Assembly: GCF_013407925.2 (NCBI RefSeq)
Contig: NZ_CP060201.1
Location: 4,387,001-4,451,000 of the forward strand
Direction of reading: 5' to 3'
DNA: 64,000 nt
From: Pseudomonas protegens
Lineage (GTDB): Bacteria > Pseudomonadota > Gammaproteobacteria > Pseudomonadales > Pseudomonadaceae
The position numbers and the translations under genes were made by a program. Below are positions 3,142 to 63,572 of this stretch, piece by piece. Numbering within the stretch: the first letter of the stretch is position 1; every line of letters begins with the position of its first letter. Below the pieces are notes generated by a model, which made no database searches, had not been told where the DNA came from, and saw nothing but the letters and a program-made list of their open reading frames with translations.

Positions 3142-3294
3142 GTCGGGTCCTTGCTCGTCGCTCTGAGAATTCGTTACAAAGTATTTCGGTCGCACGGTAG
3201 CAATCGAATATGACGCAAAGACTACATGAATGCTTCAAGAGTCCACTGCGATCGCTGGGGAAACGTCTGAAATCTGCGTCGAAACAGGATTATC

Positions 3295-3330
3295 CACAGG
3301 CCCGCTGCGTTCGGCGGCAGCGGGCCTGTG
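3295..3330. terminator. 14-bp stem-loop downstream of atoE
   Basis: A perfect inverted repeat (CACAGGCCCGCTGC, 8-nt loop, GCAGCGGGCCTGTG) starts just past the stop codon of the minus-strand atoE gene. The following bases are only weakly T-rich. The likely role is transcription termination for atoE. Confidence 0.6.
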
Positions 3331-3336
3331 GCGCCC

Positions 3337-20424: not shown

Positions 20425-21741
20425 ATGTTCAATAAACGCTTGAAGCAAGAGCTGGCGGCTCTTCGTGAAGAACTCTCGAGCCTTCAGCAAGTGAAGGAAA
20501 GCCTTGAAAGCGAGATGCTCGTGATCAATTTGAGCGCCGATGGACGGATTCAATCGGTCAATCACAACTTCGCCCAGGAAATGCTCTACAAGAGCGGCGA
20601 CCTGCTGGGGCGCTCCCTGGAAGACATCGTTCCGGCCCACGTCAAGCACGACGAGTTTCACCAGCGCTTCAAGGCGACCCTGACCCGGGGCGAGCACTTT
20701 GCCGGAGCGGTGCGCCTGCTGCGGGGCAACGGCGAGGAGGCCTGGCTGCGCTCGATCTCCCAGCCGGTCCATGACTCCGAAGGGCGGATCAAGTACTTCG
20801 CGATCTTCTCCAGCGACCTGACCCGCACCATCGAGGCCTCCCGGGAGCACGAGAACCTGATCGGCGCCCTGATGCGCTCCACCGCGCTGATCGAGTTCGA
20901 CCTCAATGGCCATGTGCTGATGGCCAATGAGCGCTTTCTCTCCGGCATGGGCTACAGCCTGGCGCAGATCAAGGGCAAGCATCACCGCATGTTCTGTGAG
21001 CCCGAGGAGTACAACAGCGCGGCCTATCAGGCGTTCTGGAAACGCCTGAATGCCGGGGAATTCATCGCCGACCGTTTCAAGCGCATCGATGCCCACGGCC
21101 GCACGGTCTGGCTGGAGGCGTCCTACAACCCGGTGCTGGACGCCAACAACAAGCTCTACAAGATTGTGAAGTTCGCCACCGTGATCACCGATCAGGTGAA
21201 CCAGGAATTGGCCGTGGCCGAAGCGGCCAACATTGCCTACAGCACTTCGCTGCAGACCGACAACAGCGCCCAGCGCGGCACCACGGTGGTCACCGAGGCG
21301 GTGAACGTGATGCGCGATCTGGCCAAACACATGCAGGACGCCGGCGAGGGCATCGGCGCCCTGAACGAGCAGTCCCTGGTGATTGGCAGCATCGTCAAGA
21401 CCATCAGCGGGATTGCCGAGCAGACCAACCTGCTGGCCCTCAACGCGGCGATCGAGGCGGCCCGGGCCGGTGAGCAGGGGCGCGGTTTCGCCGTGGTCGC
21501 CGACGAGGTCCGGCAACTGGCCTCGCGTACCAGCAAGGCCACCGAGGAAATCGTCGGCGTGGTCCGGCAGAACCAGGACATGGCCCGTGAAGCCGTGGAA
21601 CTGATGGCCGAAGGCAAGCTGCAGGCCGAGCAGGGCCTGGCCCTGGCGGCGGAAGCCGGCACGGTGATCGTCGAGATCCAGGACGGCGCGCAGAAGGTGG
21701 TGAGCGCGGTGGGGCAGTTCGCCAATCAACTGTCCAGCTGA
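20425..21741 (+). CDS. Soluble PAS-PAS chemoreceptor (copy 1 of a tandem pair)
   Basis: A 438-residue methyl-accepting chemotaxis protein with no transmembrane segment. After a short coiled coil (residues 1-35) come two PAS domains (about 30-140 and 150-265, the second with [20 protein letters not shown]), then a short MCP signalling hairpin centred on the conserved tip [37 protein letters not shown] (about 325-360). The hairpin is much shorter than in classic receptors and lacks long methylation helices. It would act in the cytoplasm on CheA/CheW. Its paralogue starts 185 bp downstream. PAS ligand unknown; redox or flavin sensing as in Aer is possible. Confidence 0.88.
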
Positions 21742-21926
21742 GTCCGGAGGCCCCGGTGACGGGGCACGCTCGCCGGTGCGGCGCTGCTCAGTGCCAGGAA
21801 TTATCGGGATCTTTCCGAGATGGTCTTAGGATTATTCTGAAAGGTCGGGCAGGGCGTGGAGAATGGTCAGCCAGCGCCGATGGCTAGAGGGATCGTTGTA
21901 TTCACTCTTAGTCTGTCGGTGTATCC

Positions 21927-23243
21927 ATGTTCAATAAACGTCTGAAACAACAGCTTGCCTCACTGAGCGACGAGCTGGCCGCTCTGCAGCAATTCAAGGC
22001 CTGTCTGGAAACCCAGGTGCTCAGCATCGAACTGGACAGCGAAGGGGTGATCCGTCGGGTCAACCAGAACTTCACGCGGACCTTGGGCCTGGATGGCCAA
22101 GAGCTCTGTGGGCACCCCCTGGAGCAGATCGTGTCGAGCCATGCGCAGGCGGCGCAGTTGTATCGCTCCTTGAGGGCAGCCCTTGAGCGCAACGAAGGCT
22201 ACATCGGTCAACTGCGCTTGCAGCGTGGCGACGGTCGCGACGTCTGGTTGCATACCTGTGTCCAGCCGATCCACGACCCAGCCGGCCATCTCGACCACTA
22301 CTCGCTGATCTGCACCGACCAGACGGCGTCGGTGGAAAGCGCCTGCGAGCATGAAAACCTGATGGCGGCGTTGCTGCGTTCCACCGCGGTGATCGAGTTC
22401 GATCTGCAAGGCCGGGTGTTGACCGCCAACCCGCGGTTTCTGGCGTGCATGGGTTACCGCCTGGATGAAGTCCAGGGGCAGAACCACCGCCTGTTTTGCG
22501 ATCCCCAGGAATACGAGGGGCCGTCGTACCAGGAGTTCTGGGCGCGCCTGAACGCTGGCGAGTATGTCGCCGACCGCTTCAAGCGGATCGACAGCCAGGG
22601 CCGGGTCGTGTGGCTCGATGCCTCTTACAACCCGGTGCTGGATGCCAACGGCCAGCTGTACAAAGTGGTGAAGTTCGCCACGGTGATCACCGACCAGGTG
22701 AACCAGGAACGCTCGGTGGCCGAAGCCGCCGACATTGCCTACAGCATCTCCCGGCAAACCGATACCAGCGCCCAGCGCGGCTCCGCGGTGGTCACCGAAA
22801 CCCTGGACGTGATGCGTGACCTGGCCAAGTGCATGCAAGAGGCCGGTGACGGCATTGAGGCCCTGAACGAGCAGTCCCTAGTGATTGGCAGCATCGTCAA
22901 GACCATCAGCGGGATTGCCGAGCAGACCAACCTGCTGGCCCTCAACGCGGCGATCGAGGCAGCCCGGGCCGGTGAACAGGGCCGCGGTTTCGCCGTGGTC
23001 GCCGACGAGGTCCGGCAACTGGCCTCGCGTACCAGCAACGCCACCGACGAGATCGTCGGCGTGGTCCGGCACAACCAGGACATGGCCCGCTCAGCGGTGG
23101 AACTGATGGCCGAAGGTCGGCAGCAAGCCGAACAGGGCCTGACCCTGGCGGCGGAGGCCGGTGCGGTGATCGTCGAGATCCAGGACGGTGCGCAGAAAGT
23201 GGTGGGCGCGGTGGGGCAGTTCGCCAGTCAACTGTCCACCTGA
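21927..23243 (+). CDS. Soluble PAS-PAS chemoreceptor (copy 2 of a tandem pair)
   Basis: A 438-residue paralogue of the preceding receptor with the same length and architecture: N-terminal coiled coil starting [13 protein letters not shown], two PAS domains, and a short MCP hairpin tip. The signalling half is almost identical to copy 1 at DNA level, while the first PAS domain has diverged strongly (for example [16 protein letters not shown] against [16 protein letters not shown]). This suggests duplication followed by divergence of sensing with retention or conversion of the output domain. It has its own upstream spacer of 185 bp, so separate expression is possible. Confidence 0.88.
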
Positions 23244-51394: not shown

Positions 51395-51439
51395 ACAGCC
51401 AGAAACAAGAAAGCCCGCACTAGGCGGGCTTCTTGAGGT
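51395..51439. repeat. Left attachment-site repeat of the integrative element
   Basis: A 45-bp sequence identical to 63413-63457. It contains an AAGCCCGC/GCGGGCTT hairpin, the tRNA-Met terminator. Imperfect similarity continues to about 51502, including GGTACTTGGTGG and TTGAAC, which look like a degraded copy of the tRNA 3' end. This marks the left boundary of the element. Confidence 0.85.
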
Positions 51440-52320
51440 GATTCACAGACTGCTGTAGACATCTATGGATCGGTACTTGGTGGTACACAGTCATTTGAAC
51501 TGGGTGGTGAAGTGACTGTATTTAAAGGATTTTATTTGATGTGTATTTGTTGGGGATACAACAGGGGATACACAGTGCTATCTGCTGGGCCTGTTTTGAT
51601 TGTTTTTTGAACAGTGTCACTACTCACAGCCGAAAGCCCCCCCCTCCCATTTTTCCCGGCATTGCGAACGAAGGGGGGCGAGCGGTCTAGACGCATAGAG
51701 CCCCAGACTTTTTGCTACCCCCTGGGGTGGTCTTTTTTGGCGGGCCGTTCATGCCGGGAGGGATGCCGATAGACCTCCGTCGCTGGTGGCATTACCCCTA
51801 AACGGGGTGCCGGGGGGGAGTGCTAACCCTTACCCCTCACAAACCCGGTGTTCTTGGTGTTCTTGGTGTTCCTAAAGCGCTGTAAGCCTTAGTCCATAAG
51901 GCTTCCAGCCATGGAACACCAACGGGGGAACCGTAGAACACCAAGCAACCAGAACACCAATGGTGTTCTCTGATCATAGGATGATGTGAGGGGATGGGGT
52001 GACAGGATGTATGGAGAGTCGGCCCGCAGGGAAGTGGCCAACAGGAACCATGGAGCCGTATTGAGGGAACACCTATCAGACCCGGCTGGACGTAATGGGT
52101 TGAGTTTCCCCCGGCATCCTTGCCGCATCGTAGGACATGATCAAGGGCGGTCTTGAGATCGAGGCGTCAGGTCGCAATGACATCCTACTACCGCTGCATG
52201 GAGTCAAACGTGCGGAGCCCAAGCTTGTGCAGCAAATGACCCACTCACTGGCCAGCGATCAGGGCAAAGTCACCGTGACCCGTGAGCGCGACGGCAGGGC
52301 CAAACTGAGCTTGGAATGCA
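51440..52320. other. Gene-poor left end of the element: arm-type repeats and iterons
   Basis: About 880 bp without a well-supported gene. It holds two GGGGATACA repeats (51552-51560, 51564-51572) that recur near the right end, T-rich and C-rich runs, and the iteron cluster at 51847-51968. A plus-strand frame from 52137 (MIKGGLEIEASGRNDILLPL start) reads protein-like for about 60 codons before running into the relaxase gene; it may be a gene fragment but I cannot identify it. Confidence 0.5.
51847..51968. repeat. Iteron cluster 1 (GGTGTTC), origin-like
   Basis: Three GGTGTTC copies at 9-bp spacing (51847, 51856, 51865), three inverted copies (51914, 51936, 51952) and one more forward copy (51962). 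GCTGTAAGCCTT lies between the groups. The same heptamer and the same 12-mer recur in cluster 2. The layout resembles P4 ori/crr, where the alpha primase binds GGTGAACAG-type repeats. Confidence 0.65.
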
Positions 52321-53271
52321 TTAGCATGGCGCTATTGCCACGTCTGCCTCGGGCATTCGCTTGGTCAAGTCGGCAAGCTGCTTGGCCAGTCGGTCGGCAC
52401 GTTCCTGTTGTCGCCCTGCCTTCAGCAGCGCTATCTCTAATGCCTGAACAACCTCGGCCAGGCTGTCGGCTCGCTTTTCTAATGTGATCTCCAGATCCTC
52501 AAGCGCCCGCTGGGCCAGCCTAAGTTCGACCGCCTGCCGATCCAGAGCCGCCTGCCGCGCATGTAGCGCCTCAGTGGCTGAGCGTTGAAGCTTGTCCTGT
52601 ATGGCCGAAGTCTTGGCCCTCAGCAGCAGCGCCTTATAGTTGGGCGTCTGTATCCCGACGACCGCAGCAGCCAGGTCTGATCGCTCAATTACCGGCTCAG
52701 CAGCGGCGAGCGCTTGGTAATACTGGCCAACCTTCTGATGGGTGGCTTTCGATCTCTCGATGCCGCGAGACAGCCCGAACGGCTTCCCGCACCAATGATG
52801 GAAGTCAGTCTGCATCTTGCGCAGCTTGGCGGCACCACCAAGGAAATCACGCGCAGACAGTCTCTCGTCCTTGGTGAGCGGCACGACATACGCGACAAGG
52901 TGGGGTGTTCTCTCATCCAGGTGAACGGTGGCGCTGACAATGTTCGTGGCTCCATGCCGAGCCTTCAGCCAAGCTATGGCCCGGTCAAAGTAGCCGCCTG
53001 TGTCGGGCATCGTCCCGCCGTGCCGGGTGAATGCCTCAGGGCTGGCGGTGATCAGATATTCAATGCAGAGCACAGCCCCCTTGCGCCTGCGTTCCGGCAA
53101 CTTGGCCAAGACCGAACTGGCAAGACCGGCAGCGGTCGACGCGCCACCAACATGCACATTGGCCGCGCCATTGGAGTTCGGTGTGGGCATCTCTCGAAAT
53201 GTGTGCCGGCCAGATCCAATAATCCCGGCGACCGACTTCAGCTTTTTTGTTCTTAGTATCGTGTAAGGCAT
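52321..53271 (-). CDS. mob: MobV-family relaxase (Pre/Mob)
   Basis: A 316-residue plasmid recombination/mobilisation protein. The catalytic metal motif HLDERTPHLVAYVVPL (HxDExxPH) lies near residue 125, in the relaxase fold; a long coiled coil fills residues about 210-300. It would nick an oriT and allow conjugative transfer by a helper element. The start at 53271 has GGAGG and gives the family N-terminus MPYTILRTKKLKS. It shows the element is mobilisable. The oriT was not located; upstream DNA (53272-53485) contains a CGCTTGTGTAGTGAGTACAC-like region on the minus strand that might be examined. Confidence 0.88.
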   Translation of the reverse strand: MPYTILRTKKLKSVAGIIGSGRHTFREMPTPNSNGAANVHVGGASTAAGLASSVLAKLPERRRKGAVLCIEYLITASPEAFTRHGGTMPDTGGYFDRAIAWLKARHGATNIVSATVHLDERTPHLVAYVVPLTKDERLSARDFLGGAAKLRKMQTDFHHWCGKPFGLSRGIERSKATHQKVGQYYQALAAAEPVIERSDLAAAVVGIQTPNYKALLLRAKTSAIQDKLQRSATEALHARQAALDRQAVELRLAQRALEDLEITLEKRADSLAEVVQALEIALLKAGRQQERADRLAKQLADLTKRMPEADVAIAPC

Positions 53272-53485
53272 GGCAGCCTCCCCGTGCTGAGTGTTCTCAT
53301 CTTCAGCGTGCGGGTGGAGCAAAGGGTGGCACAAGTCCCCCCAAGCGCCGCTTGTGTACTCACTACACAAACTGCGTTTGTCGTTCGCTTCCTGCGGAAG
53401 AAAGCAAAAGCCAACTGCCGCCTCGCCTAACACGGGCTTTATCTGCCATCAGTGAGCGAGCCCAGATGAAACGTTAACAGGTGGC

Positions 53486-54364
53486 TTATATGCTGGGTAT
53501 GGACTTGGTAGGGAAGATTGAGGCGTGTGTCTTAAACTGTAGGGTCAGTGCTGGGCACCGAAAGGAACTCAGTGCGCGGCAATATGTGTCGTGGTCTTTT
53601 ATATTCGGATTGCGAGATGTCGCCGTGTGATCGCTGTCTTGTACTGGAGAGGTTAATGACCTTGGCTCTAAAAAGTTGGTGGACGTATCTGGAGCTGGGA
53701 GCTTGTGCTGTTCAGGTGCTGGATGTGTAAGTTCATTGTTTATTGAGGGGCTGATTTGAGGTTCTGTGTTTGTGCTTTTGGCGAACAAGCTTAAAAATAT
53801 AGACGCGGTAAAGAAAATTACCCCGTTGCGAATAAATGTAATCGCTACGGTTGCTTGATTTGAACGAATATTATTGGTGACTTGAAATCCACTTGCGGCG
53901 TGCCACATTGTCTTGACCGCATCCTGTCCGCCTTCTGCTAGTGTTCGTAGATATTTTGCACCATATCCGAATCGCTCTTTTGGGCGTAATCCATTAAATC
54001 CGATAATGGCGCCAGCTAAAAATAGTGCCATTGATAGCGACGATAGTATCAGTGCGGTTGTTTTTAGTGGGGAGTTTTCTAATCCGTCAAATATGGCCTT
54101 TGTCACTACACTTCCAACAGTGACTGCGATAGATAGCGAGGCTGTGAGTTTGTTGAGTTTTTCGTCTAGCTCCTTTGCACGAGTCCATTCGCTGTCAATG
54201 TATGTTTTAAGTGTGCTTTCTTCAAGATGGCGGATGTCACTGAATTCGGGGGCGTGCTCCCAGTTCTCTAATTGTTTTTGGATTCTGGTGTTGGCAACTA
54301 GATACTTAATTGCGTCGGGAGCGAATTTTAATAGAAGGTTTTCAAATTTTATACGGATGGACAT
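53486..54364 (-). CDS. Three-helix membrane protein encoded beside an ATP-grasp ligase
   Basis: A 292-residue protein of unknown family. An N-terminal charged helical part ends in ELDEKLNKL and is followed by a hydrophobic helix (LSIAVTVGSVVTKAIF), a second helix (LILSSLSMALFLAGAIIGF), a cytoplasmic-type helical stretch with KERFGYGAKYLRTLAEGGQD, and a third helix (FIRNGVIFFTASIFLSLF). The C-terminal 90 residues are Pro/Ser/Thr-rich and probably disordered. The helix pair resembles SLATT-like effector membranes, but this is inference. It overlaps the ATP-grasp gene by 16 bp, has GGAG upstream, and is strongly AT-rich. Export, immunity or pore formation are possible roles. Confidence 0.75.
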   Translation of the reverse strand: MSIRIKFENLLLKFAPDAIKYLVANTRIQKQLENWEHAPEFSDIRHLEESTLKTYIDSEWTRAKELDEKLNKLTASLSIAVTVGSVVTKAIFDGLENSPLKTTALILSSLSMALFLAGAIIGFNGLRPKERFGYGAKYLRTLAEGGQDAVKTMWHAASGFQVTNNIRSNQATVAITFIRNGVIFFTASIFLSLFAKSTNTEPQISPSINNELTHPAPEQHKLPAPDTSTNFLEPRSLTSPVQDSDHTATSRNPNIKDHDTYCRALSSFRCPALTLQFKTHASIFPTKSIPSI

Positions 54365-55308
54365 TGGAGTTCTCCAGCAATCGCTTCGGATATTCCGCGC
54401 CCTGGGCGGTCTAGCCAGCCCCATTCGCCAGTTGGGTTGATCTCGATAAACCAAAACTCCCCTTCTGAATAGGCTAAGTCAATTGCCCCATAGCGAAGAC
54501 CTAAGTCCTTAGTTAGGAGGAAGCACTTTTCTTCAATTGTTGGTGGCAGTGAGAAGGAACGGAAGCTGAGATCTTCTTTTTTTATTAAGCGCCAGTCACC
54601 ATCTATTCCATTGTTGCCTATGTTTATTTCATCGCACCATAATTTATTTCCGATTATGGTCACTCTCAGGTCGATTTTTGATGCGATTATCGATTGGCAG
54701 GTGAGTGGGGCTAAATGAAGAAATTCATCAGCGCATTCAGACCAGGTTGTTAGTGTTGTATAACCGAAGTGTTGTTTTGAGTTTTCGCGAAGCAGTAGTG
54801 TGTCAATGCTTTTTATCGCGATGTTTTCACTTATAAGCTCTTGGATTTTTGCATGCCTATCATTTGTGATGATAGTGGTGGGCACTGAGAATCCTAATTT
54901 TGCTGCTCTGCGTAATTGATAGGGTTTTGATTCTGCTTGATATGTTGCAGCGGGGTGGTTGTACCATGCTGCCTCATCAAAAAGCATTAAGCCTCGCATA
55001 AAAGCACCCCACTGTGATTGCTTCAGTTGCTCCTCTGGGAGCAACGCTTTGTTTGGGGTGTTTCTAAGGAAGGTCGGTTGTCGCCACCATACTGTTTTTA
55101 GAGAGCTGTCAATATGCCAAGAGTGCTGGTTATGACGGCATGTCATAGTGGCTTTTACAGGGTCTACTGTAATCGAGAGGTCGTCCAGTGCATCACGATT
55201 TATTCGCAGAAATGATATGCGCTGATTGGTGAGGTTGTGGCAAATACGATCAGTAGGAAAATCTAACAGAGAGGAAAGAATCAGAACGCTTGGCTTGTTG
55301 TTTGACAT
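54349..55308 (-). CDS. MvdD-like ATP-grasp peptide ligase (putative graspetide macrocyclase)
   Basis: A 319-residue ATP-grasp enzyme. The C-terminal catalytic motif is GAIDLAYSEGEFWFIEINPT followed by GEWGWLDR and ISEAIAGEL, which is the form of graspetide ligases (FLExNPxGQW...). The N-terminal MSNNKPSVLILSSLLDFPTD and WWRQPTFLRN are typical of the MvdC/MvdD type. These enzymes make ester or amide bonds between side chains of a precursor peptide. It begins four bases after a 62-codon ORF that is the likely precursor; an alternative GTG at 55335 would overlap it. AT-rich, horizontally acquired. Confidence 0.82.
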   Translation of the reverse strand: MSNNKPSVLILSSLLDFPTDRICHNLTNQRISFLRINRDALDDLSITVDPVKATMTCRHNQHSWHIDSSLKTVWWRQPTFLRNTPNKALLPEEQLKQSQWGAFMRGLMLFDEAAWYNHPAATYQAESKPYQLRRAAKLGFSVPTTIITNDRHAKIQELISENIAIKSIDTLLLRENSKQHFGYTTLTTWSECADEFLHLAPLTCQSIIASKIDLRVTIIGNKLWCDEINIGNNGIDGDWRLIKKEDLSFRSFSLPPTIEEKCFLLTKDLGLRYGAIDLAYSEGEFWFIEINPTGEWGWLDRPGRGISEAIAGELQCPSV

Positions 55309-55312
55309 AAAA

Positions 55313-55501
55313 CTATTGGCCTTTCTGATCTTCACCGGTTTCTATATCGTTTTTCTTAGTGCTCTGTGCATGTCGTGGATCGTACGCAACAAGCCCTGCT
55401 TCGTTGCGCCAAACGCCTGAATCAAAATCGTAGGTTGCGTCTTCTGGCCCAGAAATATCCCGGTGCTCAGTGGTTTTTGCTTTACGTTGTAGGATGTGCA
55501 T
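55313..55501 (-). CDS. Candidate graspetide precursor peptide
   Basis: A 62-residue hydrophilic peptide directly upstream of the ATP-grasp gene. AAGGA stands nine bases before the ATG. Its middle has ATYDFDSGVWRNEAGLVAYD and its C-terminus is rich in Ser/Thr/Lys and Asp/Glu (QSTKKNDIETGEDQKGQ), the residue types joined by graspetide ligases. A central YD...G..W element recalls the leader/target region of ATP-grasp-associated RiPP precursors. The core region and cross-links cannot be predicted from this sequence alone. A promoter TTGAGC-17-TATTTA is present upstream. Confidence 0.6.
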   Translation of the reverse strand: MHILQRKAKTTEHRDISGPEDATYDFDSGVWRNEAGLVAYDPRHAQSTKKNDIETGEDQKGQ

Positions 55502-55551
55502 TTTTCGATATCCTTATTCATGTTTTAAATAGTCATATGGTGTGTTCTGCT

Positions 55552-55589
55552 CAAACAACTACGTCGCCTTATGAGGACGTAGTTGTTTG
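55552..55589. repeat. Perfect 14-bp inverted repeat upstream of the peptide gene
   Basis: CAAACAACTACGTC and GACGTAGTTGTTTG are separated by a 10-nt loop. It lies between the primase stop and the precursor gene, and its left arm on the plus map abuts the -35 of the proposed precursor promoter. No U-tract follows on either strand, so an operator or an RNA-processing hairpin is at least as likely as a terminator. Confidence 0.7.
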
Positions 55590-55647
55590 CTGCTATCGGC
55601 ATTTATCGTATGGTTTCGTTTTTTATGCAAGCGAGCGCACTCATCAC

Positions 55648-58536
55648 TCAAGCCGCTGCTCGAAATGATTCGTCATCCTCCTGCGTTAATGCCCTTGCAT
55701 TTACGACATAAGCGCGGCCTTTAGGCATGCCAGGTAAAGTCACGGACTGAGCGGCCTTGCCATCGGCGCTAGGCTCCAGAATCCCCCGTGCGACCAGCTC
55801 CCGGTTCACGTTGCGAAGGTTCATCCCCTTGAAAACTTCATCGCGCCACGTGGTGCTTAGGAAATAGTAAGTCACAGAGGTATATAGGGTGTCGCCAAAG
55901 CCGTGTTCCATCGTTCGACGGAACCCAAGACGATCAGCGGTGCGCGGGGCGTGATCGTCTGTCTTCGCGGCGATGGCGTCCCAACGAGTGAACCGACTTT
56001 CACCGTAGCGTTCCACCATGCCGCGCAGCCTGGCAATAATCGCGTCACCTTCCAGATTGCCCGCGCCACCACGTTCAGCCAGCCAGGCATCAAGGCACGC
56101 ACGGGCGGCGGTCGTGGCGGTGCCGTCCGGCCAGCCTGTAACACCTAGCGCGGTGGCCAGTTCGCCAGCGGCAGCGGCCAACCCGAAGCGAGCGGCTGCG
56201 CGTTGTGCCTGGCCGCTGGCGTTGGCAGGGAGCGCACGGCTAACGAAGCTTTCCAGCGTATGACGGAGTATCACCCGGAACCCTTCCAGTTTTCCGGGCT
56301 CACAGAGGGCCGACAGGAAAGCAACCAGCGGGGTGCCGTAGTGTTTTCCCACTCTGGCCTTGAGGGCATCAGACAGGGCCGCAGCATCTTCAAAGCCATG
56401 CAAGGCCTCAAACAATCCCATCCCTCTCCCCGCGTCAGCCGGCACGGCCAGCAAGCGTACTTCCATGCCGGCTTTCAGTTCCTTATGCGCCTCGGCCATG
56501 TGTTGCGCCAACGTCTTTTCACCGGTCGAGAGAAACAACAAACGCCACTCTTGAACCTGTCGGCCCGCCTGGCCTCGGTCATTGGCACGAGCTTTCCCTG
56601 TACCGTTGCCGAGCATGTAAACCGTTTCGCCGATGATCCGAGGGTCACACATGCCAATTTCATCAAGCACCAGCAACCCGTCCGAGTGAGCGGCGGCGAT
56701 GGACTCCAGGGCATTGTCCGTCGAGCGCCAAGAACGCACCAAGCGTGGCCCACCATACACCGAGGCAGCGACCTGCAAGTGTGTGGTCTTGCCGCCTGAG
56801 CTGTCGCCGTACAGATGGAAACCGCCCGACTCTTGACCCAGCAAGTGCAGCAAGGGGCCAGCGAAGGCAGCGCACGTGACAAAGGTCAACCGATGGTTCC
56901 CGACACAGAGCGCGCCAATCTGTTGTTGCCATTGCTCCAGGGTGCCTGACTGTTCTATTGGCGGCATCTGAGCGCCGGCCTCATAAAAGTGAAGGTGTTC
57001 CGCACTGGTGCCAACCTGCTCACCTGGCAACAGGTAGGCGTCTCCATGCCAGCCGAGGCGTGTAACCAAGCGTGCCCGTTCGGTGCTGTCGAAGCCTTGC
57101 AGATAGCTTTGCAAATCGTTGCGGGCGTTCCGGCCTGAACGGCTACCCGCCAGGCGAAGCCCCATGTCTACCAATGGCCCTAGCACTTCCTTGCCGAAGT
57201 CGCCCGCCATGCTGCGCTGGGGAATATTCCAGCGTTTCTTATCGTTGTCCGGGTCGTCAAACTCAACCAGCAAGCCCCAATTTTGGCCCTTGTCATCACG
57301 GGTTCGGGCCAGAATCTCCAAGCGAGAACACACCGGGCGTGCTTCGCCATCGTCGCCAGCATAGAACACGCCCTCGGGTGTAAGTCGGAATCCGCCCGGC
57401 AAAGCTTCTGCTTTCGGTTTACGGGAGGGCTTGCGGCTGCTGGAGGGCTCGACTTTTGTTGCCTTGGTGCTGGTGCTGGTGGCCATTGGCGCCAGGGCGA
57501 ACAGCTCCCCGGTGCGCTCCAGTTCGGCCAGGTGAGCAGGTGTCCAGCCCTTTGTTTGTGCGTCGGCGGCATCGTCGCCTTCGGCCCATTCACCACCTTC
57601 GGCGAAGGTAGGCTGCTCACCATCAAGGCCGGGACGTTTACTAAACACGGTCAATGCCAGCATCCGAACAGAGCGAGCGCCTAGCTTTTGAAGGTGCTCA
57701 GCCAGTTCATCCATGCAACCAAGCCCCGGCGCGTCGTTATCAGGCCAGAGCAGTACGTCACGCCCGGTCAGCGGTCTAAAATCAGCTTTGCGCCAGGAGT
57801 TCGTGCCGTTGGGCCAGCAGGTAGCAACGTGCTCGGGAAGTAGCTGAGCGGCGGCGTCAGAGGACTTCTCGCCCTCAACCACGACGACAGGTGCGCTAGG
57901 GCGTTGCGCCAACTGATCGAGGTGTAACAGGGGGCGCGGATCTGGCAAGCCTTGCCAGCGCCACTGATGAGCGCCGGGCGCACCCTTGCACCAGGTCAGC
58001 GGCGCGAACACTTTTCGCGGGATGCCGCTTTCATCTGGCCCCAGATCAAAGCGATAGAGCACCATCAGGGGAAGGGACTCGGCGCTTTTATAGATCCACA
58101 CCTTTGACGGTGCCCCATGCTGACGATGCCTGGCCGGAACTTTGCGCATCGCTTCATCAGGGATCGGTAGCACCGGTACCCACTCGGGTGCCTTGGCTTT
58201 GCTGGAGGCGACTGGTTCGGGGCCGCTACTCGCGGTCACGCTGAGGAAGTCCGCGAGCTTATTGCAGGCCTCTACGTCGGTGCCACCATCCAGATAGCGC
58301 ACCAGGTCAATCAGGTCGCCACCCTTATCACCTGTTGCGAAGTCCGACCAGGTGCCTTTGCTCAGGTTCACCTTGAACGATCCGGCGTGTTTGTCTGCGC
58401 GGGTTGGGTTTGGGGCGGTGTATTCCTTACCGCCGTCTTCGCGTTTTCCGTTGGGCAGCCAGCGAGCCAATACCCGGTCAATGGCCTTCAGGGAGGCGGC
58501 TTTCACATCTGCGAAGCTGGGGCGCTTATTCTTCAT
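55648..58536 (-). CDS. DUF927 primase/helicase replication protein
   Basis: A 962-residue replication protein. The N-terminal part (SFADVKAASLKAIDRVLARWLPNG) and VVVVEGEKSSDAAAQLLP/DVLLWPDNDAPG are TOPRIM-type primase features (residues about 215-280). A low-complexity Ser/Lys linker follows near 350-375. The C-terminal DUF927 helicase has the Walker A motif LYGDSSGGKTT and the Walker B-like LLVLDEIGMCD. It is probably the P4-alpha-like initiator acting at the iterons. Its start overlaps the DUF3077 stop (ATGA), so it is expressed under the c4-type leader. Confidence 0.87.
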   Translation of the reverse strand: MKNKRPSFADVKAASLKAIDRVLARWLPNGKREDGGKEYTAPNPTRADKHAGSFKVNLSKGTWSDFATGDKGGDLIDLVRYLDGGTDVEACNKLADFLSVTASSGPEPVASSKAKAPEWVPVLPIPDEAMRKVPARHRQHGAPSKVWIYKSAESLPLMVLYRFDLGPDESGIPRKVFAPLTWCKGAPGAHQWRWQGLPDPRPLLHLDQLAQRPSAPVVVVEGEKSSDAAAQLLPEHVATCWPNGTNSWRKADFRPLTGRDVLLWPDNDAPGLGCMDELAEHLQKLGARSVRMLALTVFSKRPGLDGEQPTFAEGGEWAEGDDAADAQTKGWTPAHLAELERTGELFALAPMATSTSTKATKVEPSSSRKPSRKPKAEALPGGFRLTPEGVFYAGDDGEARPVCSRLEILARTRDDKGQNWGLLVEFDDPDNDKKRWNIPQRSMAGDFGKEVLGPLVDMGLRLAGSRSGRNARNDLQSYLQGFDSTERARLVTRLGWHGDAYLLPGEQVGTSAEHLHFYEAGAQMPPIEQSGTLEQWQQQIGALCVGNHRLTFVTCAAFAGPLLHLLGQESGGFHLYGDSSGGKTTHLQVAASVYGGPRLVRSWRSTDNALESIAAAHSDGLLVLDEIGMCDPRIIGETVYMLGNGTGKARANDRGQAGRQVQEWRLLFLSTGEKTLAQHMAEAHKELKAGMEVRLLAVPADAGRGMGLFEALHGFEDAAALSDALKARVGKHYGTPLVAFLSALCEPGKLEGFRVILRHTLESFVSRALPANASGQAQRAAARFGLAAAAGELATALGVTGWPDGTATTAARACLDAWLAERGGAGNLEGDAIIARLRGMVERYGESRFTRWDAIAAKTDDHAPRTADRLGFRRTMEHGFGDTLYTSVTYYFLSTTWRDEVFKGMNLRNVNRELVARGILEPSADGKAAQSVTLPGMPKGRAYVVNARALTQEDDESFRAAA

Positions 58537-58823
58537 TTGGCACCTTTGCTAGCGATAAAAACACCGGTCGTCACATCATCAACCAGGGCTTTAGCCATCT
58601 CATTCAAATAGTGTACGGCCCATAATGCGGCCCCCGGATCCTCCAGTTCGCAAGCGGCCATGACGGCTAGCTTGTTTGCGCAGTCCATCAGGCAAGACGC
58701 ATGCTCTAAGGCATCACTGACAGGCACTTCAGGGTTTACTTTGAACAGGCTCTGCCCATCAAGATTGCAGCCTGAGAAGCTTGTGACCCCGGCTGTTTCG
58801 GGTTCAGCTCTAAGCTGTTTCAT
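58533..58823 (-). CDS. DUF3077 protein (element copy)
   Basis: A 96-residue DUF3077 protein with the core LFKVNPEVPVSDALEHASCLMDCANKLAVMAAC and AALWAVHYLNEMAKALVDDV, clearly related to the chromosomal gene at 37160-37426. It is translated between a 54-codon leader ORF and the primase, with ATGA overlaps on both sides. Function unknown; a role in control of replication is inferred only from position. Confidence 0.82.
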   Translation of the reverse strand: MKQLRAEPETAGVTSFSGCNLDGQSLFKVNPEVPVSDALEHASCLMDCANKLAVMAACELEDPGAALWAVHYLNEMAKALVDDVTTGVFIASKGAK

Positions 58824-58984
58824 TGCGCACCCCCGGCGATTTCCAAGGCTCGCGCCTTGCTCATGTGCTGGTTGTAGCGAGCCAGTCGAGTGGCTAGGCT
58901 CGAGTTTGCGTGAAGGGCAGACATGGCCATGGCTCGGTGCGCTGCGGCTCGACTGGAGTTGCTGGACGGTTTGAGGGCGTGCAT
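58820..58984 (-). CDS. Leader ORF (icd-like) of the element's c4-type module
   Basis: A 54-residue ORF starting MHALKPSSNSSRAAAHRAMA, rich in Ala, Ser and Arg. GAAGGAG is correctly spaced before the ATG at 58984, and the TGA overlaps the DUF3077 start. In phages P1 and P7 the equivalent frame (icd) must be translated to allow expression of the gene behind it. Here its ribosome binding site TAAGAAGGA is complementary over nine bases to the central loop of the leader RNA. Confidence 0.6.
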   Translation of the reverse strand: MHALKPSSNSSRAAAHRAMAMSALHANSSLATRLARYNQHMSKARALEIAGGAQ

Positions 58985-59231
58985 GGGTGGAGCTCCTTCT
59001 TAAGTGGGAGCTGCCACGGTTCGTCGCCAAACGAATTAGGGTGGCAGCTGTGCGCAGGTTGGCGAACCGGGTAAGAAGGAACCCGGCAGACCCGAAGGTC
59101 TCCCGCGCACAGCCGCCATAGAGCGAAAATGCGGGCACAAAAAAAGCGCCTGCAATCGATATGGTGGCGCCTGTGCGCCTTCTTAAACTCGGGTCGCCAA
59201 ACCCGGTCGCTGAATTTGCAGCGACGTGCAG
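58985..59231 (-). ncRNA. c4-type antisense RNA leader of the replication operon
   Basis: Minus-strand order: hairpin GTCGCTG/CAGCGAC (59206-59225); TTGGCG-loop hairpin (59190-59205, a1); SD mimic TTAAGAAGG (59178-59186, b1); GGCGC/GCGCC hairpin (59166-59179); GC hairpin with U7 (59130-59154, identical to the chromosomal copy over 25 nt); a branch closed by a 14-bp stem (59105-59118 with 59042-59055) with a TTCG hairpin, anti-SD loop TCCTTCTTA (59072-59080, b') and CGCCAA (59059-59064, a'); TTGGCG hairpin (59020-59035, a2); SD TAAGAAGGA (58994-59002, b2). The central segment can pair with either flank, as in c4/CI RNAs. Confidence 0.78.
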
Positions 59232-59260
59232 AGAGTAGCGCGACGATTGATTGCGCGCAA
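59232..59260 (-). promoter_or_regulatory. Promoter of the element's c4-type leader / replication operon
   Basis: On the minus strand TTGCGC (59255-59260), 17-bp spacer, TACTCT (59232-59237), followed after about seven bases by the first leader hairpin. Position and spacing match the chromosomal copy. Confidence 0.6.
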
Positions 59261-59358
59261 CCACAGACAAAGCTTGCGCTGCCGTTCGGCACGGCCTAAA
59301 TTTAATCGACATATTGATTTACCTCTAACGCCTCCGGTTGCAGCCGGGGGCGTTTTCG

Positions 59359-59700
59359 TTAGTGCAGGGCGGTGACAGGGCGAGTCAGAGACAACCAGCT
59401 CAGGTGCTGGCCTTTGCGGGACTCTGAGCGCATGTGCTCCAGGGCGATGGGGTTAGCCAGCAGGTTGGGAATAAGCTGTTGTGCATCCTCGATCATCACA
59501 CCTGCTGGCACCTCGACGGCCAGTAACACCCATTCCAGCGTCGGCCAGGCCAACAGCAGAACATGGGCGCCTTCGGCAATCGCTCGGTCACGAAGGGCGC
59601 GCAGGCGTTCACGCCCCTTGGCTGCCATCACTGGGAGGGCCGGAATAGCAGCACCTTCGAGCTCATCAAGGACGCTATGAGGTAGGAATATCGGCATCAT
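59359..59700 (-). CDS. Hypothetical element protein
   Basis: A 113-residue protein, MMPIFLPHSVLDELEGAAIP at the N-terminus, a basic helical stretch (KGRERLRALRDRAIAEGAHV), a hydrophobic strand region (LLLAWPTLEWVLLAVEVPAGV) and a polar C-terminus. It has no signal peptide. The ATG at 59700 overlaps the stop of the preceding gene. It belongs to the tightly coupled minus-strand series of the element. No family is recognised. Confidence 0.65.
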   Translation of the reverse strand: MMPIFLPHSVLDELEGAAIPALPVMAAKGRERLRALRDRAIAEGAHVLLLAWPTLEWVLLAVEVPAGVMIEDAQQLIPNLLANPIALEHMRSESRKGQHLSWLSLTRPVTALH

Positions 59701-60377
59701 GCAGCCCCCTGCATCAGCGTTAACAATGGTGGGTCGCCAGCTTCGCCACGTAGCCAAGCGGCAATCCGTCGATCTTCTGCGTACTGGCGGGCATATTCGT
59801 CTTGCAGGAAGCTGCGCCGGGCCGCAACGTTTTCCAATATCTGCTCCGGCAAGTCGTCGGTTGGCGTGTCCACTTGTAGGCCGTGCTCGTTCCAAGGCCG
59901 TTCAATGGATTGATCTGCACGTGAGCGAAGGTCTTGGGCTGCGGAATAACTGGCCTCCGCAGCTCGACGCTCAGCCAGCAAATCAGCTTCCACATAGGCG
60001 GCCCAGTTAGCTAAGTCATTGGCATAACCTGCTTCGGAATCAACCAGCCAGTACGTCACCCATTCACCAAGTCCTGTCGCGGTTAGGGCGTTTCTCTGCG
60101 CTTTCTTCATTGCGAACATGCCGGTGCCGACCACCATGGCGAATTCGCGCCGGATCCCGTGGCGTTCTAGCAGTGGCGGCAGTTCCCATGGATTGGCCTC
60201 AATGGGCAACACCAGGCCATCAGGATTGAAAAAGAAGGCTTCACGCTCCCGACCATTCCAGCTCACACCGGCAATGGTGCGCTGGCGCCAGTTGTTTTGA
60301 TTCGGTTGATACAGGCTGAAGCCGATGCGGTAGGCATCGAAGAAAGGGCCCTTGAACGGAGCGCGACGGTAAGTCAT
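59697..60377 (-). CDS. Hypothetical element protein
   Basis: A 226-residue soluble protein. The first 110 residues are rich in aromatic residues (PFFDAYRIGFSLYQPNQNNW, EREAFFFNPDGLVLPIEANP), and the last 100 form an acidic/basic helical region with many Ala, Arg and Glu. It overlaps both neighbours by four bases. I do not recognise the family; position among AlpA-like and replication genes suggests a function in element maintenance. Confidence 0.68.
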   Translation of the reverse strand: MTYRRAPFKGPFFDAYRIGFSLYQPNQNNWRQRTIAGVSWNGREREAFFFNPDGLVLPIEANPWELPPLLERHGIRREFAMVVGTGMFAMKKAQRNALTATGLGEWVTYWLVDSEAGYANDLANWAAYVEADLLAERRAAEASYSAAQDLRSRADQSIERPWNEHGLQVDTPTDDLPEQILENVAARRSFLQDEYARQYAEDRRIAAWLRGEAGDPPLLTLMQGAA

Positions 60378-60712
60378 GCGGCCACCCCACGGGCGGCGAT
60401 GCGCCCACGAATCCAGTTCTGCACCTCACTGAGTACGAATCCCACTGGGGCGCCACGAGCGGTGCTGTTGCTCAGTGGTACTGGTTTTGGAAAGCTTGGA
60501 TCATCTTTCAGGCGTTTATAGACAGTGGCGCGAGCTAGTCCCGTCAATGCCTCAAGCTCTGGCATGCGAATGAGCGTAGTTGCGGGATCGAACGGATGGG
60601 CAGGTGAGAGAGCGCCTACGCCGGAATTGGTGCGCAACGGCTCGACGTTGGCTGGCAGATTGGAGGAAGCAGAGGATGACGATGGCATCTGGTGTTGGCT
60701 TGTCTCAGGCAT
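60374..60712 (-). CDS. AlpA-like regulatory protein
   Basis: A 112-residue protein with a Ser/Gln-rich N-terminal half and a C-terminal AlpA/excisionase-type helix-turn-helix: LIRMPELEALTGLARATVYKRLKDDPSFPKPVPL, then GAPVGFVLSEVQNWIRGRI. AlpA-type regulators of P4-like elements control integrase or excision. The ATG at 60712 overlaps the stop of the upstream HTH gene by one base. Confidence 0.8.
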   Translation of the reverse strand: MPETSQHQMPSSSSASSNLPANVEPLRTNSGVGALSPAHPFDPATTLIRMPELEALTGLARATVYKRLKDDPSFPKPVPLSNSTARGAPVGFVLSEVQNWIRGRIAARGVAA

Positions 60713-60993
60713 CACACCACCCCCGGCTGATTCGTCGTGGTGCGCGTGCGCTGCCGATCTTGAAGCCATTGAGCCAGATCGTTGCGATGGTAGCGTATGC
60801 GGGCACCACAGCGAATAAAGGGCAGCGAATGCCGCCCCGTGCTGCGCCAGGTAGCCAGGGTTTTGGCGGACAGCCCCAACACCAATGCTGCTTGCTCTGG
60901 CGTGAGTAGATCGGCAGGGTTCAGAGTTACGTCAACGCTGGCTCGCTGGTGCTGCATCGCTGCCATGGGCGTCGTGAGTGGCTGGGATTGCAT
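60712..60993 (-). CDS. Excisionase-like HTH protein
   Basis: A 93-residue protein with a MerR/excisionase-type helix-turn-helix: LLTPEQAALVLGLSAKTLATWRSTGRHSLPFIRCGARIRYHRNDLAQWLQDRQ. Such proteins bend att-site DNA or regulate element genes. GGAGG is seven bases before the ATG at 60993. It is the second small DNA-binding protein of the element, coupled to the AlpA-like gene. Confidence 0.8.
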   Translation of the reverse strand: MQSQPLTTPMAAMQHQRASVDVTLNPADLLTPEQAALVLGLSAKTLATWRSTGRHSLPFIRCGARIRYHRNDLAQWLQDRQRTRTTTNQPGVV

Positions 60994-61057
60994 GTAGTGC
61001 CTCCGGGTTTGCTGTAAGTCCACAGGGCACACGTTATTTTTCCAGCCGGAAGCGCGC

Positions 61058-61750
61058 TTAGTTCACTTCCCTTTTTTTGCTCGACGCAGGCACGACTCCG
61101 CCAACCCTTAGAATTGTTCTAACCTGTTTGGCGCTCAGCCCCTCAGCGGCAGCGGTGTCGCTGATAATTCCTGCAAGGCTACGAACTGCGCGACCTTCTG
61201 CAATTAGGCGTTTACCAGCGTCACAAATTGCCCTATCGCGGTCAGCGTTTTCTGCGCGCCGGGACTCTCCTGACTTAACACCACCTTTGACTTGAAGGGA
61301 CAGCAGCGCCGCCTTGAGTGAATCACTGCCTAGTGCCACCAACGTTGTCAGGTGCCAGCCAAGTGCATTCAACTCCGCTTCACTCAAAGGCCCGACGCTG
61401 GCCTTTTCTGCAAGATCATGCGCAGTTCGCGCCGCCATTCGTTTTATACCGGCTCGTACAAGCGGCTGATCACCGGAATCAGGCAGCTGTTCATGACTTA
61501 AGTCACGCAGTACCCGGACAAACCCTGTGATAGGGAATGGCATCAAAGCTGGGTTTTTCAAAGCTGCTCTACGGAAGAACTCATCATCCTTCAAGCTCTC
61601 ACCCATGAGATTGATTAACCATGGCAGATAGAATGGGGCGGGCTCGAAGCCCAATGGGGCATAGGGTGTGTTCAGGTAATCCCAGTGCCACCTAATCCCG
61701 TCGATCAGCACACCAATGTACTCAAGCTCGGGCAACAGGCTGTCGTCCAT
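61058..61750 (-). CDS. Hypothetical element protein
   Basis: A 230-residue soluble, largely helical protein. The N-terminal half has aromatic patches (GIRWHWDYLNTPYAPLGFEP, FYLPWLINLMGESLKDDEFF); the C-terminal 60 residues are basic with a helix-turn-helix-like ending (LAGIISDTAAAEGLSAKQVRTILR), so DNA binding is possible. It is the first gene of the coupled minus-strand series after the integrase. Family not recognised. Confidence 0.68.
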   Translation of the reverse strand: MDDSLLPELEYIGVLIDGIRWHWDYLNTPYAPLGFEPAPFYLPWLINLMGESLKDDEFFRRAALKNPALMPFPITGFVRVLRDLSHEQLPDSGDQPLVRAGIKRMAARTAHDLAEKASVGPLSEAELNALGWHLTTLVALGSDSLKAALLSLQVKGGVKSGESRRAENADRDRAICDAGKRLIAEGRAVRSLAGIISDTAAAEGLSAKQVRTILRVGGVVPASSKKREVN

Positions 61751-62085
61751 TTACACCCCCTCGCCCCGGAGTCCACGCGCCAAGCCCGCGCCGTAACTCG
61801 CTGCCCAATGCTGGTGATGGTCGTGTGAACAGCGGCCTACAGAGGAGAGCTGGGGCTGTGTTGTCGGCTCGCTGGCACGAAGTATGTGTCGGTCGGGCCA
61901 GGGCACAGCGTCCGCTTGGTAGGTCGCTCGTTCGGAACACCGTTGGTGTTCTTGTAGCTTGGTGTTCCGGCTTTTTTTAGTTGGTGTTCCAAGGCTGTAA
62001 GCCTTGTTTGGCGGGGCTGTCAGCGATTTAAGAACACGAGGAACACCTAGAACACCGTTTTTTTGAGGGGTACGAAAATGCATGT
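61751..62085. other. Intergenic region holding iteron cluster 2
   Basis: 335 bp without a gene. Its right half contains the second GGTGTTC iteron cluster and the shared GCTGTAAGCCTT 12-mer; a T7 run lies at about 61972. The left half has no feature I recognise. Confidence 0.5.
61935..62056. repeat. Iteron cluster 2 (GGTGTTC), origin-like
   Basis: Forward GGTGTTC at 61945, 61961 and 61983; inverted GAACACC at 61935, 62041 and 62050, plus an imperfect copy at 62032. GCTGTAAGCCTT is at about 61994. Cluster 1 is about 10 kb away across the element, but the two would be about 2 kb apart in the circular form. Confidence 0.65.
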
Positions 62086-63327
62086 CTATACCGCCTTACC
62101 AAATTGGCCTTGCACTACATTGCCCTTTTCCAGTTTTTCAAGGTGGTCGGCGTACCACTGCATCATCGTCGTGCGTTGAGCGAGGTATTGGGCCTTGTTA
62201 TAGATCCCTCGTACACCAGGTGCTTTGTGGCTGAGTTGGGCCTCGACATGGTCGGCATCAAACTCGTGTTCGTTCAGGATGGTACTGGCGATATGGCGGA
62301 AACCGTGGCCGGTTTGTCGACCCTCATATCCCAAACGACGCAGAGCCATCAGAAACACCGTATCGCTACGGGGTTTGGTGCGGTCGCTCCTTCCAGGGAA
62401 CAGCAATGGGTAGGCGCCGGTCAGGATATGAAGTTCTTTCAATATATCGACGACCTGACGGCTGAGCGGCACCAGGTGTTCAAGCCCTTTCTTGCGGCCC
62501 TTGCGCTCTACTGGGATTGTCCACAGCTTCTTATCAAGGTCGAACTCTTCCCAGCGTGCCTCCCGCAGTTCACTGGGGCGGACAGCCATCAGGGTCAGCA
62601 GACGAAGGCCTAGCTGAACGTCCTGTGCGTGGGGGTATGAGCGAATAGCCCGGAGCAGGGTGGGCAACTCATCAATACTAACGTGCGCGTAGTTCTCTGC
62701 CTTGCCGGATGCCAGAAATTTATGCACCCCTTCAAGCGGGTTGTTCACTGCTCTGCCTGTCACGCGGGCCAGGTCGTACACATCCTTGCAGTAGGCCCGA
62801 ACTCGGCTCATCTGCTCAAGGATGCCTTGCCGTTCCAGACCACGTAACAGCTCCATCCACTCCATTGACAGAATGCCGGTGTAGAGCCGCTTACCGAACG
62901 AGGGGAACACGTGGCGCTCTAATGCGCCCATAACTCGTTTGGCGGTGCCAGCATCCCAAGAGTTGAGCCGAGAGGTGTGCCACTCCCGCGCCAGTGATTC
63001 AAAGGTGTTATTGCTGGCCGCCAGATCGGCAGCCTGACGGGCTTGTTTGGTTGCTATCGGATTCTTGCCCTCAGCGGCATCGGCGCGCAGTTCGGCAGCC
63101 TTCTGTCTGGCCAGCGCCCCACCGACCTCGGGATAACCACCTAACCCAAGCCAACTCCACTTGCCTGCCGGCGTCTTGTAACGCAGTTGCCAGGACTTCT
63201 GGCCGTCAGGCTTCACACGGAAATACAGGCCGTTACCATCCTGCTCCCGGTATTCCTTGGTGTCGGGCTACAGGCCCGCTAGGGCGGTATCAGATAGCGG
63301 GCGGCGCTTGATTTCGGAGCGCTTCAT
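62086..63327 (-). pseudogene. int: P4-type tyrosine integrase with in-frame amber codon 20
   Basis: The full frame from ATG 63327 is 413 codons and reads MKRSEIKRRPLSDTALAGL, then a TAG at 63268-63270, then PDTKEYREQDGNGLYFRVKP and a complete integrase. Normal relatives have a glutamate-like codon here. The catalytic domain is intact: RPSELREARWEEF, HGFRH and the tyrosine region LSHKAPGVRGIYNKA. Without suppression only a product starting at an internal codon (such as GTG 63216, no ribosome binding site) could form, lacking part of the arm-binding domain. I call it a probable recent pseudogene; a sequencing error is an alternative. Confidence 0.8.
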
Positions 63328-63330
63328 TGG

Positions 63331-63383
63331 CTTGTATCCCCTCGGTTCGATTTTTCATCAAGGATACACAGGGGGATACACGG
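63331..63383. repeat. Arm-type GGATACA repeats at the right end
   Basis: GGATACACAG at 63362-63371, GGGGATACACGG at 63372-63383 (approximate edges) and an inverted GGGGATACAAG at 63331-63341. Similar GGGGATACA copies lie inside the left end at 51552-51575. They are candidate integrase arm-binding sites. Confidence 0.5.
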
Positions 63384-63412
63384 CGGGAAGGTATAGGGGT
63401 AGATAAGGAGAT

Positions 63413-63457
63413 ACAGCCAGAAACAAGAAAGCCCGCACTAGGCGGGCTTCTTGAGGT
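63413..63457. repeat. Right attachment-site repeat of the integrative element
   Basis: Identical over 45 bp to 51395-51439. On the minus strand it contains the terminator hairpin of the tRNA-Met gene with a following T-rich stretch. It lies 38 bp beyond the tRNA 3' end and marks the right boundary of the element. Confidence 0.85.
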
Positions 63458-63494: not shown

Positions 63495-63572
63495 TTGGTG
63501 GCTACACAGGGACTTGAACCCCGGACCCCAGCATTATGAATGCTATGCTCTAACCAACTGAGCTATGTAGCC
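63495..63572 (-). tRNA. tRNA-Met (CAU), integration target
   Basis: Acceptor GGCTACA/TGTAGCC, D-arm GCTCAGTTGGTTAGAGC, anticodon arm with CAT, T-arm CGGGG-TTCAAGT-CCCTG and an encoded CCA are all present. The anticodon stem TAGCA/TGCTG encloses ATTCATAA, eight bases instead of seven, so there is one extra nucleotide in the loop or a bulge. Total length is 78 including CCA, one more than expected. The mobile element begins just beyond its 3' end. Confidence 0.88.

Follow-up and report, generated by a model that had tools for sequence, protein, structure and literature searches.

A conserved peptide, ATP-grasp ligase and membrane protein trio on mobile DNA, a graspetide-like module with a possible role inside its own cell

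Ribosomally synthesised and post-translationally modified peptides (RiPPs) have been studied mainly as secreted antibiotics, inhibitors and signals. In layout, the closest described counterparts of the graspetide-like locus reported here are the thuringinin loci, to which an uncharacterised membrane protein ('cluster 18') is specific; the survey by Makarova et al. (2022) proposes that it transports the peptide (PMC8939145). The more recent work of Carter et al. (2026) includes groups with unmatched partner proteins (PMC13097080). Here we analyse a 64,000-nucleotide stretch of Pseudomonas protegens DNA (the window; contig NZ_CP060201.1, positions 4,387,001 to 4,451,000) that carries at 53486-55501, head to tail on the minus strand, genes for a short peptide, an ATP-grasp ligase and a membrane protein with three transmembrane (TM) segments. 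Its features suggest that the trio acts within the cell that makes it. We tentatively read it as a compact, mobile-borne graspetide-like module whose product would be kept in the cell, act with the three-TM protein and serve in conflict.

The first gene (55313..55501, minus strand) encodes a precursor-like peptide of 62 residues, with a leader-like body containing YDxxxGVW and a C-terminal tail, TKKNDIETGEDQKGQ, as the proposed core. Its stop codon lies four bases from the ATG, at 55308, of the gene for an MvdC/MvdD-type ATP-grasp ligase of 319 residues (54349..55308, minus strand) with the motif FIEINPTGEWGW. The ligase gene overlaps by 16 bp the gene for the three-TM protein (292 residues; 53486..54364, minus strand), which contains EWTRAKELDEKL and ends in a variable, low-confidence tail. 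The open reading frame (ORF) positions, the four-base spacing, the overlap and the three-helix protein had all been given in an original prediction made from the letters of the window, and our ORF check confirms them. That prediction was right that the trio is lower in G+C content, and it overstated the contrast: the trio has 44.7% and the remaining element 58.1%, not 40% against more than 60%. The same comparison was computed for six of the nine other loci, and in all six the trio is likewise AT-richer than its flanks.

A search with the peptide yielded 404 relatives at E ≤ 0.01 among 499 candidates. At most 120 relatives each were listed for peptide, ligase and membrane protein, and it is to these that "listed" refers below. 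Nearly every listed peptide (119 of 120) ends in [TS]KKxDxE[TS]GED[QL]KGx, a count biased upward because the query included the tail and the expression was written post hoc; the single miss, P0221, has 52 residues and diverges after TKK. Mean ungapped identity across 117 listed peptides is 84% in the 15-residue tail versus 25% in the 45 residues that precede it. The final residue, in 119 listed peptides, is Q in 80, E in 34, L in 2, and H, P and T in one each. The tail is likewise present at all 10 loci reached via the ligase (the window, L001, L005-L010, L036 and L037). Its codons there differ mainly synonymously (272 synonymous versus 112 nonsynonymous differences over all pairs), indicating that the protein is held constant. 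Preceding the tail, the body carries Y[DNSCQ]xxxGx[WR] in 118 of 120 listed peptides and is modelled, with modest confidence, as a short helix and three short strands.

Three core motifs served for comparison: TxKxPSD of microviridins (group 1), TTxxxxEE of plesiocin (group 2) and the thuringinin-type TxxTxxxExxDxD (group 3). Each occurs in 0 of 120 listed peptides, so that the lack of a microviridin core first noticed in the window extends to its listed relatives. The proposed core is therefore placed outside the three group motifs, and its cross-link pattern may be new. Judged by sequence, the locus has the makings of a graspetide: a conserved precursor gene adjoins that of the ligase, and the putative C-terminal core offers Thr/Ser/Lys residues as acceptors and Asp/Glu residues as donors.

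The ligase itself is assigned by its matches to the MvdC/MvdD branch of graspetide ATP-grasp enzymes. In NCBIfam it matches TIGR04187 (6.4e-51), MvdC (3e-37), MvdD (1e-32), grasp-with-spasm (4e-17) and the RimK family (0.11), and the solved structures closest to it belong to AMdnB, CdnC, an MvdD-like protein and two entries called 'ATP grasp ligase'; the enzyme thus groups with RiPP-type ATP-grasp proteins, as originally proposed. All of its NCBIfam matches fall under the curated cut-offs (173 bits for TIGR04187 versus a cut-off of 350), and it is therefore probably a new subfamily. A Pfam scan gave no match. We counted 674 relatives at E ≤ 0.001 among 1977 candidates; among those listed with a source name, the majority go by RimK-like or RimK-type.

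All three genes are present at each of the ten loci reached via the ligase, always with the peptide upstream and the membrane gene downstream of it. The pairing of peptide and ligase predicted from the window is thus conserved next to homologous ligases. These loci lie on plasmids, chromosomal contigs and two prophage-like contigs, and about eight are independent, since L006/L007 and L008/L009 are close pairs. Eight plasmid records carry a ligase of at least 52% identity, of which six were examined; H4 and H5 match like H3. Two copies of the trio are broken. In L010 (3950-8058) an IS66 element interrupts the ligase and leaves the membrane gene beyond it intact, and in L007 (4876-5620) the membrane gene is split into two frames.

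Co-occurrence extends past these loci. Between the 120 listed ligases and the 120 listed peptides, 36 longest contigs coincide in size, versus a mean of 0.65 when sizes are shifted by 1 to 20 either way. Membrane-protein relatives number 28, far below the ligase or peptide numbers, owing either to faster evolution or to losses in a word-based search; they share 9 same-size longest contigs with listed ligases and 8 with listed peptides. With relatives so sparse, it is on those 9 and 8 coincidences that co-occurrence of the full trio beyond the ten loci rests. Ligase and peptide also co-vary. Distances between ligases and between peptide bodies correlate at r = 0.74 over 35 pairs (from the 36, a size under 2,000 and a size common to two ligases were removed, and the window pair was added), a value reached in 0 of 5000 permutations (best 0.22) and partly expected from linkage and shared descent.

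The membrane protein has three hydrophobic TM segments that start near residues 73, 105 and 173. The loop past the second segment is conserved across the family, with the consensus GFxGLRPKPRxGYGA, and has a basic composition in the window protein (7 K/R versus 3 D/E); it is probably cytoplasmic. Confidence in the AlphaFold model averages 82-95 by block over residues 21-190 and is low past residue 200, where the tail is presumably disordered. In a comparison with SLATT/Pycsar-type membrane effectors, weak profile matches were seen to SLATT_5 (0.016, in 1 of 19 family members) and to DUF4231 (0.1, for the membrane protein of L004).

Ligases of the window clade are rare and sporadic among species representatives. 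None was found outside the window's own genome in samples of 398, 298 and 369 genomes, which overlap and of which one scored at most five candidates per genome; the other ligase matches in these samples are distant MvdC/D-type ligases. Plasmid carriers of the clade come from Azospirillum, Rhizobium, Martelella, Agrobacterium and Mesorhizobium, and the plasmid neighbours of the trio include an ABC-three-component system and AbiE in L006, AbiE in L007 and SIR2 in L009. Two contigs from a viral collection look like prophages. In L036 the trio sits between a neck gene and a head-protease gene, and the protease adjoining it is that of the phage head; in L037 the trio is at the contig end, and a single unknown gene separates it from the endolysin, spanin-like and terminase genes that come next. 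The L036 contig also encodes, at 3274-4671, a minor head protein that weakly matches ADP-ribosyltransferase families in its C-terminal part. The annotations of L006-L010 show neither a leader peptidase nor a transporter next to the trio, and none was recognised by eye in the window, L001, L005 (unannotated), L036 or L037.

In the window, the features around the trio mark it as cargo of an integrated element that carries a relaxase, with mobilisation predicted. The element (51395-63457; 12,063 bp) is bounded by 45-bp perfect direct repeats, putative attachment (att) sites found by exact repeat search at 51395..51439 (left) and 63413..63457 (right). The right repeat lies 38 bp from a tRNA-Met (CAT) gene (63496..63572, minus strand), the neighbourhood of integration. 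All element genes considered are on the minus strand. They encode an integrase of the tyrosine-recombinase type, judged by eye from its translation (62086..63216), an HTH_17 regulator (60712..61032), an AlpA-type regulator (60374..60769), a DUF3077 protein (58533..59312), a DUF927 protein that is a primase/helicase-type replication protein of the element (55648..58536) and, on the other side of the trio, a MobV-family relaxase read from a GTG-start ORF (52321..53433). Integrase, relaxase and repeats beside the tRNA gene, not inside it, together characterise an integrative mobilisable element, and the earlier view of the trio as separate cargo on mobilisable DNA holds. Five pairs of exact direct repeats of at least 25 bp occur in the window, and the 45-bp pair alone brackets the element. 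Elsewhere, at 21379-23188, exact direct repeats of 80, 56 and 25 bp with a spacing of 1,502 bp probably reflect the duplication of part of a gene.

Across the genus, 46 of 199 genomes hold relatives of the DUF927 protein (E ≤ 1e-60), some of which are partial or just 33-40% identical. On the 3' side of such relatives, 40 stretches were surveyed as a cargo slot, 39 spanning 8.5 kb each and a single one 2,110 bases. MobV, which adjoins the trio in the window, was found in none of the 40 (tblastn, E ≤ 1e-8). In 38 of them a same-strand ORF of 279-365 residues directly follows DUF927; the window has no such ORF there. Past this first gene the ORF layout varies among loci. Nineteen of the first 20 stretches hold a further ORF of at least 130 residues within 6.5 kb, beyond the gene after DUF927, and the largest such ORF matches PADLOC at E ≤ 1e-5 in 8 of 19 loci (HerA, PDC-M60A twice, IetS, a partial SIR2 at 1.1e-10, restriction enzyme twice and dGTPase). 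When 107 of 155 slot ORFs were scanned, a set that excludes nearly all genes adjoining DUF927 and some at the far end, 281 PADLOC families matched at 1e-10, with AriA, NsnB, HEC-01A, AbiLi and PtuA at the top. The element's relatives thus appear to hold varied cargo, some of it resembling defence genes, a result that is no more than suggestive, since the stretches may pass the element ends and the counts have no chromosomal background.

Our favoured explanation, tentative when taken as a whole, joins these observations as follows. The ligase would bind the N-terminal, leader-like part of the peptide and close macrolactone or macrolactam rings in the tail by linking Asp/Glu side chains to those of Thr/Ser or Lys, with loss of water; that the tail is modified by the ligase is very probable. 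The product would escape export and is likely to stay in the cell. There its target or partner would be the three-TM protein of the same locus, for which it would be a ligand, gate or restraint, an interaction we consider somewhat more probable than its opposite. An intracellular product working with the membrane protein is favoured because no recognised peptidase or exporter adjoins the genes, the core is conserved and the membrane partner is constant. Travelling on integrative elements, plasmids and prophage-like DNA, the module would serve conflict with phages or rival mobile DNA, in the form of abortive infection or exclusion. The mobile, phage-like and partly defence-rich surroundings argue for such a role, on which we are evenly divided. 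A more specific version we regard as rather doubtful: an immune module whose cyclised tail would bind or lock, from within the cell, a membrane effector encoded beside it, and in which this effector would, upon infection, disable its cell or keep DNA from entering.

Several results weigh against this explanation. No trio protein, whether peptide, ligase or window membrane protein, matches PADLOC at E ≤ 1, which leaves the locus outside the known anti-phage systems modelled there, and 30 membrane relatives gave scattered weak PADLOC matches, the best at 0.0057. Fold searches with the membrane model returned generic long-helix bundles or nothing significant; as the model resembles merely generic folds of this kind, a pore function is without structural support. 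The leader motif Phhx(1,2)h was found by regular expression in 17 of 120 listed peptides, and none was seen by eye in the window peptide; the motif is reported for about half of known precursors and is not required for membership (PMC8939145). In the cargo slot, 11 of the 19 largest ORFs have no PADLOC match at E ≤ 1e-5, the weaker of the eight matches (two restriction-enzyme, one dGTPase and one SIR2) range from 7.5e-11 to 2.8e-6, and a Pfam scan showed that the stretches also hold genes of ordinary kinds, among them response regulators and one with an MCP domain. The bias in the tail count, the shared descent behind the ligase-peptide correlation and the limits of the slot counts, given above, count on the same side, as does the transport proposed for the thuringinin-locus membrane protein.

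That last proposal also favours a secreted bacteriocin or signalling graspetide, whose tail would be cyclised, whose leader would be cut by a host protease encoded elsewhere and whose three-TM protein would export the product or confer immunity. Many graspetides are exported products, and small membrane proteins can be immunity proteins. The survey that suggests transport further states that ATP-grasp loci as a rule do not encode the GG peptidase (PMC8939145). Against this reading, no leader peptidase or transporter is annotated or was recognised by eye at the ten loci, and GG occurs in just 20 of 120 listed peptides. Typical bacteriocin cores diversify, and this core does not. The bacteriocin with exporter or immunity protein, one of two roles offered in the original prediction, is thus less supported, and we rate it as unlikely; the other, a defence or competition module, fits the contexts better, with the role itself a matter of interpretation. 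What stands of that prediction as a whole is a graspetide-like, conserved and mobile-borne peptide-ligase-membrane locus. The same compact, partly overlapping genes, mobile carriers and sporadic distribution would suit an addiction module of toxin-antitoxin type that stabilises mobile elements, with the membrane protein doing harm and the modified peptide or the ligase restraining it, or the reverse. Broken copies, the interrupted ligase of L010 and the split membrane gene of L007, are in keeping with this too. However, the L010 membrane gene is intact, and if the ligase there is inactive and the membrane gene expressed, a membrane toxin restrained by ligase activity is unlikely at that locus; overall we think an addiction module improbable, short of dismissing it.

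Two further possibilities dispense with rings. The ligase might join the peptide's C-terminus to another molecule, in the manner of Pup: conservation runs to the last residues, the final one is mostly Q or E, and QKGQ recalls the C-terminal end of Pup. Against such tagging, the last residue is L, H, P or T in 5 of 119 peptides, the ligase is an ATP-grasp enzyme of the graspetide branch, unlike PafA, which is glutamine-synthetase-like, and no Dop-like gene was noted nearby by eye, no aimed search having been made; we consider it very unlikely. Slighter still is the chance that the peptide works unmodified, as a regulator or subunit, and that the ligase acts on another substrate, for example adding amino acids as RimK does. 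The RimK-like names of most source-named ligase relatives speak for it; the RimK-family model scores 0.11 versus 6e-51 for the graspetide maturase model, and ligase and peptide body co-vary.

Should the immune-module version be correct, it would describe a graspetide that defends inside its own cell and that plasmids, integrative elements and prophage-like DNA have spread among both alpha- and gammaproteobacteria. Part of proteobacterial graspetide diversity may consist of conflict modules, not natural-product clusters. The trio is a small, clonable three-gene set with which to test an intracellular role and a core outside the three group motifs. In the immune-module version, the window family would also be part of a larger clade that includes loci with TKT-repeat precursors.

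Those loci emerged when 32 loci around other MvdC/D-type ligases were checked. In 13 of them a script identified, downstream of the ligase, an ORF with two or more predicted TM segments; annotated coding sequences supplied one for L041 and L043 as well, giving 15 of 32; for the remaining 17 the script, which may miss some, found no partner. Thirteen of the 15 have upstream ORFs with at least three TxT..acidic motifs, which that expression does not detect in L014 and L031. The genome of the window itself holds two further precursor-ligase-three-TM loci, L003 (C1:3641785-3642702) and L004 (C1:6628156-6629079), with four TKT..E.DDD-type repeats. A Leptospira phage (L039, 4886-6580) encodes a 37-residue annotated TKT..acidic-repeat peptide (a longer frame of 106 residues is possible), an ATP-grasp ligase and a 207-residue three-TM protein, and an unverified phage contig (L040) is also among the TxT..acidic partner loci. 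In a FastTree ligase tree the ten window-type tips form one clade (support 1.0), the 15 other partnered ligases group together (no support value given), and both join with L016, a single long-branch tip, at support 0.76. Within that clade 25 of 26 tips have a three-TM partner, the exception being L016, where no membrane gene was seen by eye; the labels were set from the presence of the partner, so the tree is not blind.

How, then, does the trio compare with known systems? Its three-gene layout is not new, because thuringinin loci already pair a precursor, an ATP-grasp ligase and an uncharacterised membrane protein (PMC8939145). The likeness of the cluster 18 protein to the window protein is one of layout. 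Thuringinin precursors have repeated cores of the group 3 type, whereas the window family has a single conserved tail that matches that motif in 0 of 120. The loci with TKT..E.DDD repeats, L003 and L004 in the same genome and L012, L013, L027, L028, L030 and L038-L043 elsewhere, share the gene order, have ligases that join the window clade at support 0.76, and encode membrane proteins whose profile shows a weak similarity to that of the window family (hhalign E 9.9e-5, probability 58). They differ in their precursors, which range from 37 residues as annotated (L039) to 227 in the longest ORF (L003), most of them bearing three or four repeats; their ligases are about 30% identical to that of the window, and the peptide profiles give no convincing alignment (probability 2.4). 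Microviridin-type synthetases (AMdnB, CdnC, 5ig8 and 5ig9) share the sequence family and an EINPTGEWG-type motif, but the window ligase scores far under the MvdC/MvdD equivalog cut-offs and its peptides lack the TxKxPSD core. GRASP_SAV_5884, or tgmB-tgmA (TIGR04187), is the best NCBIfam model for the ligase, yet the score is about half the cut-off, and no NCBIfam model of an actinobacterial tgmA (GRASP_targ) precursor was among the matches to 10 peptides at E ≤ 10, in a scan whose filter drops weak matches and whose library was not checked for such a model. An O-methyltransferase gene is frequent at loci of the actinobacterial branch (PMC8939145), whereas none is annotated beside the window-type trio in L006-L010. 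In what was consulted of the open-licence PMC literature we found no description of the peptide or trio family, which may sit unnamed in survey supplementary tables such as those of PMC13097080. As far as that search reaches, what is new here is the peptide family with its conserved tail, the clade formed by its ligases, the occurrence on mobile and viral DNA, and the finding that ligases with a three-TM partner group together.

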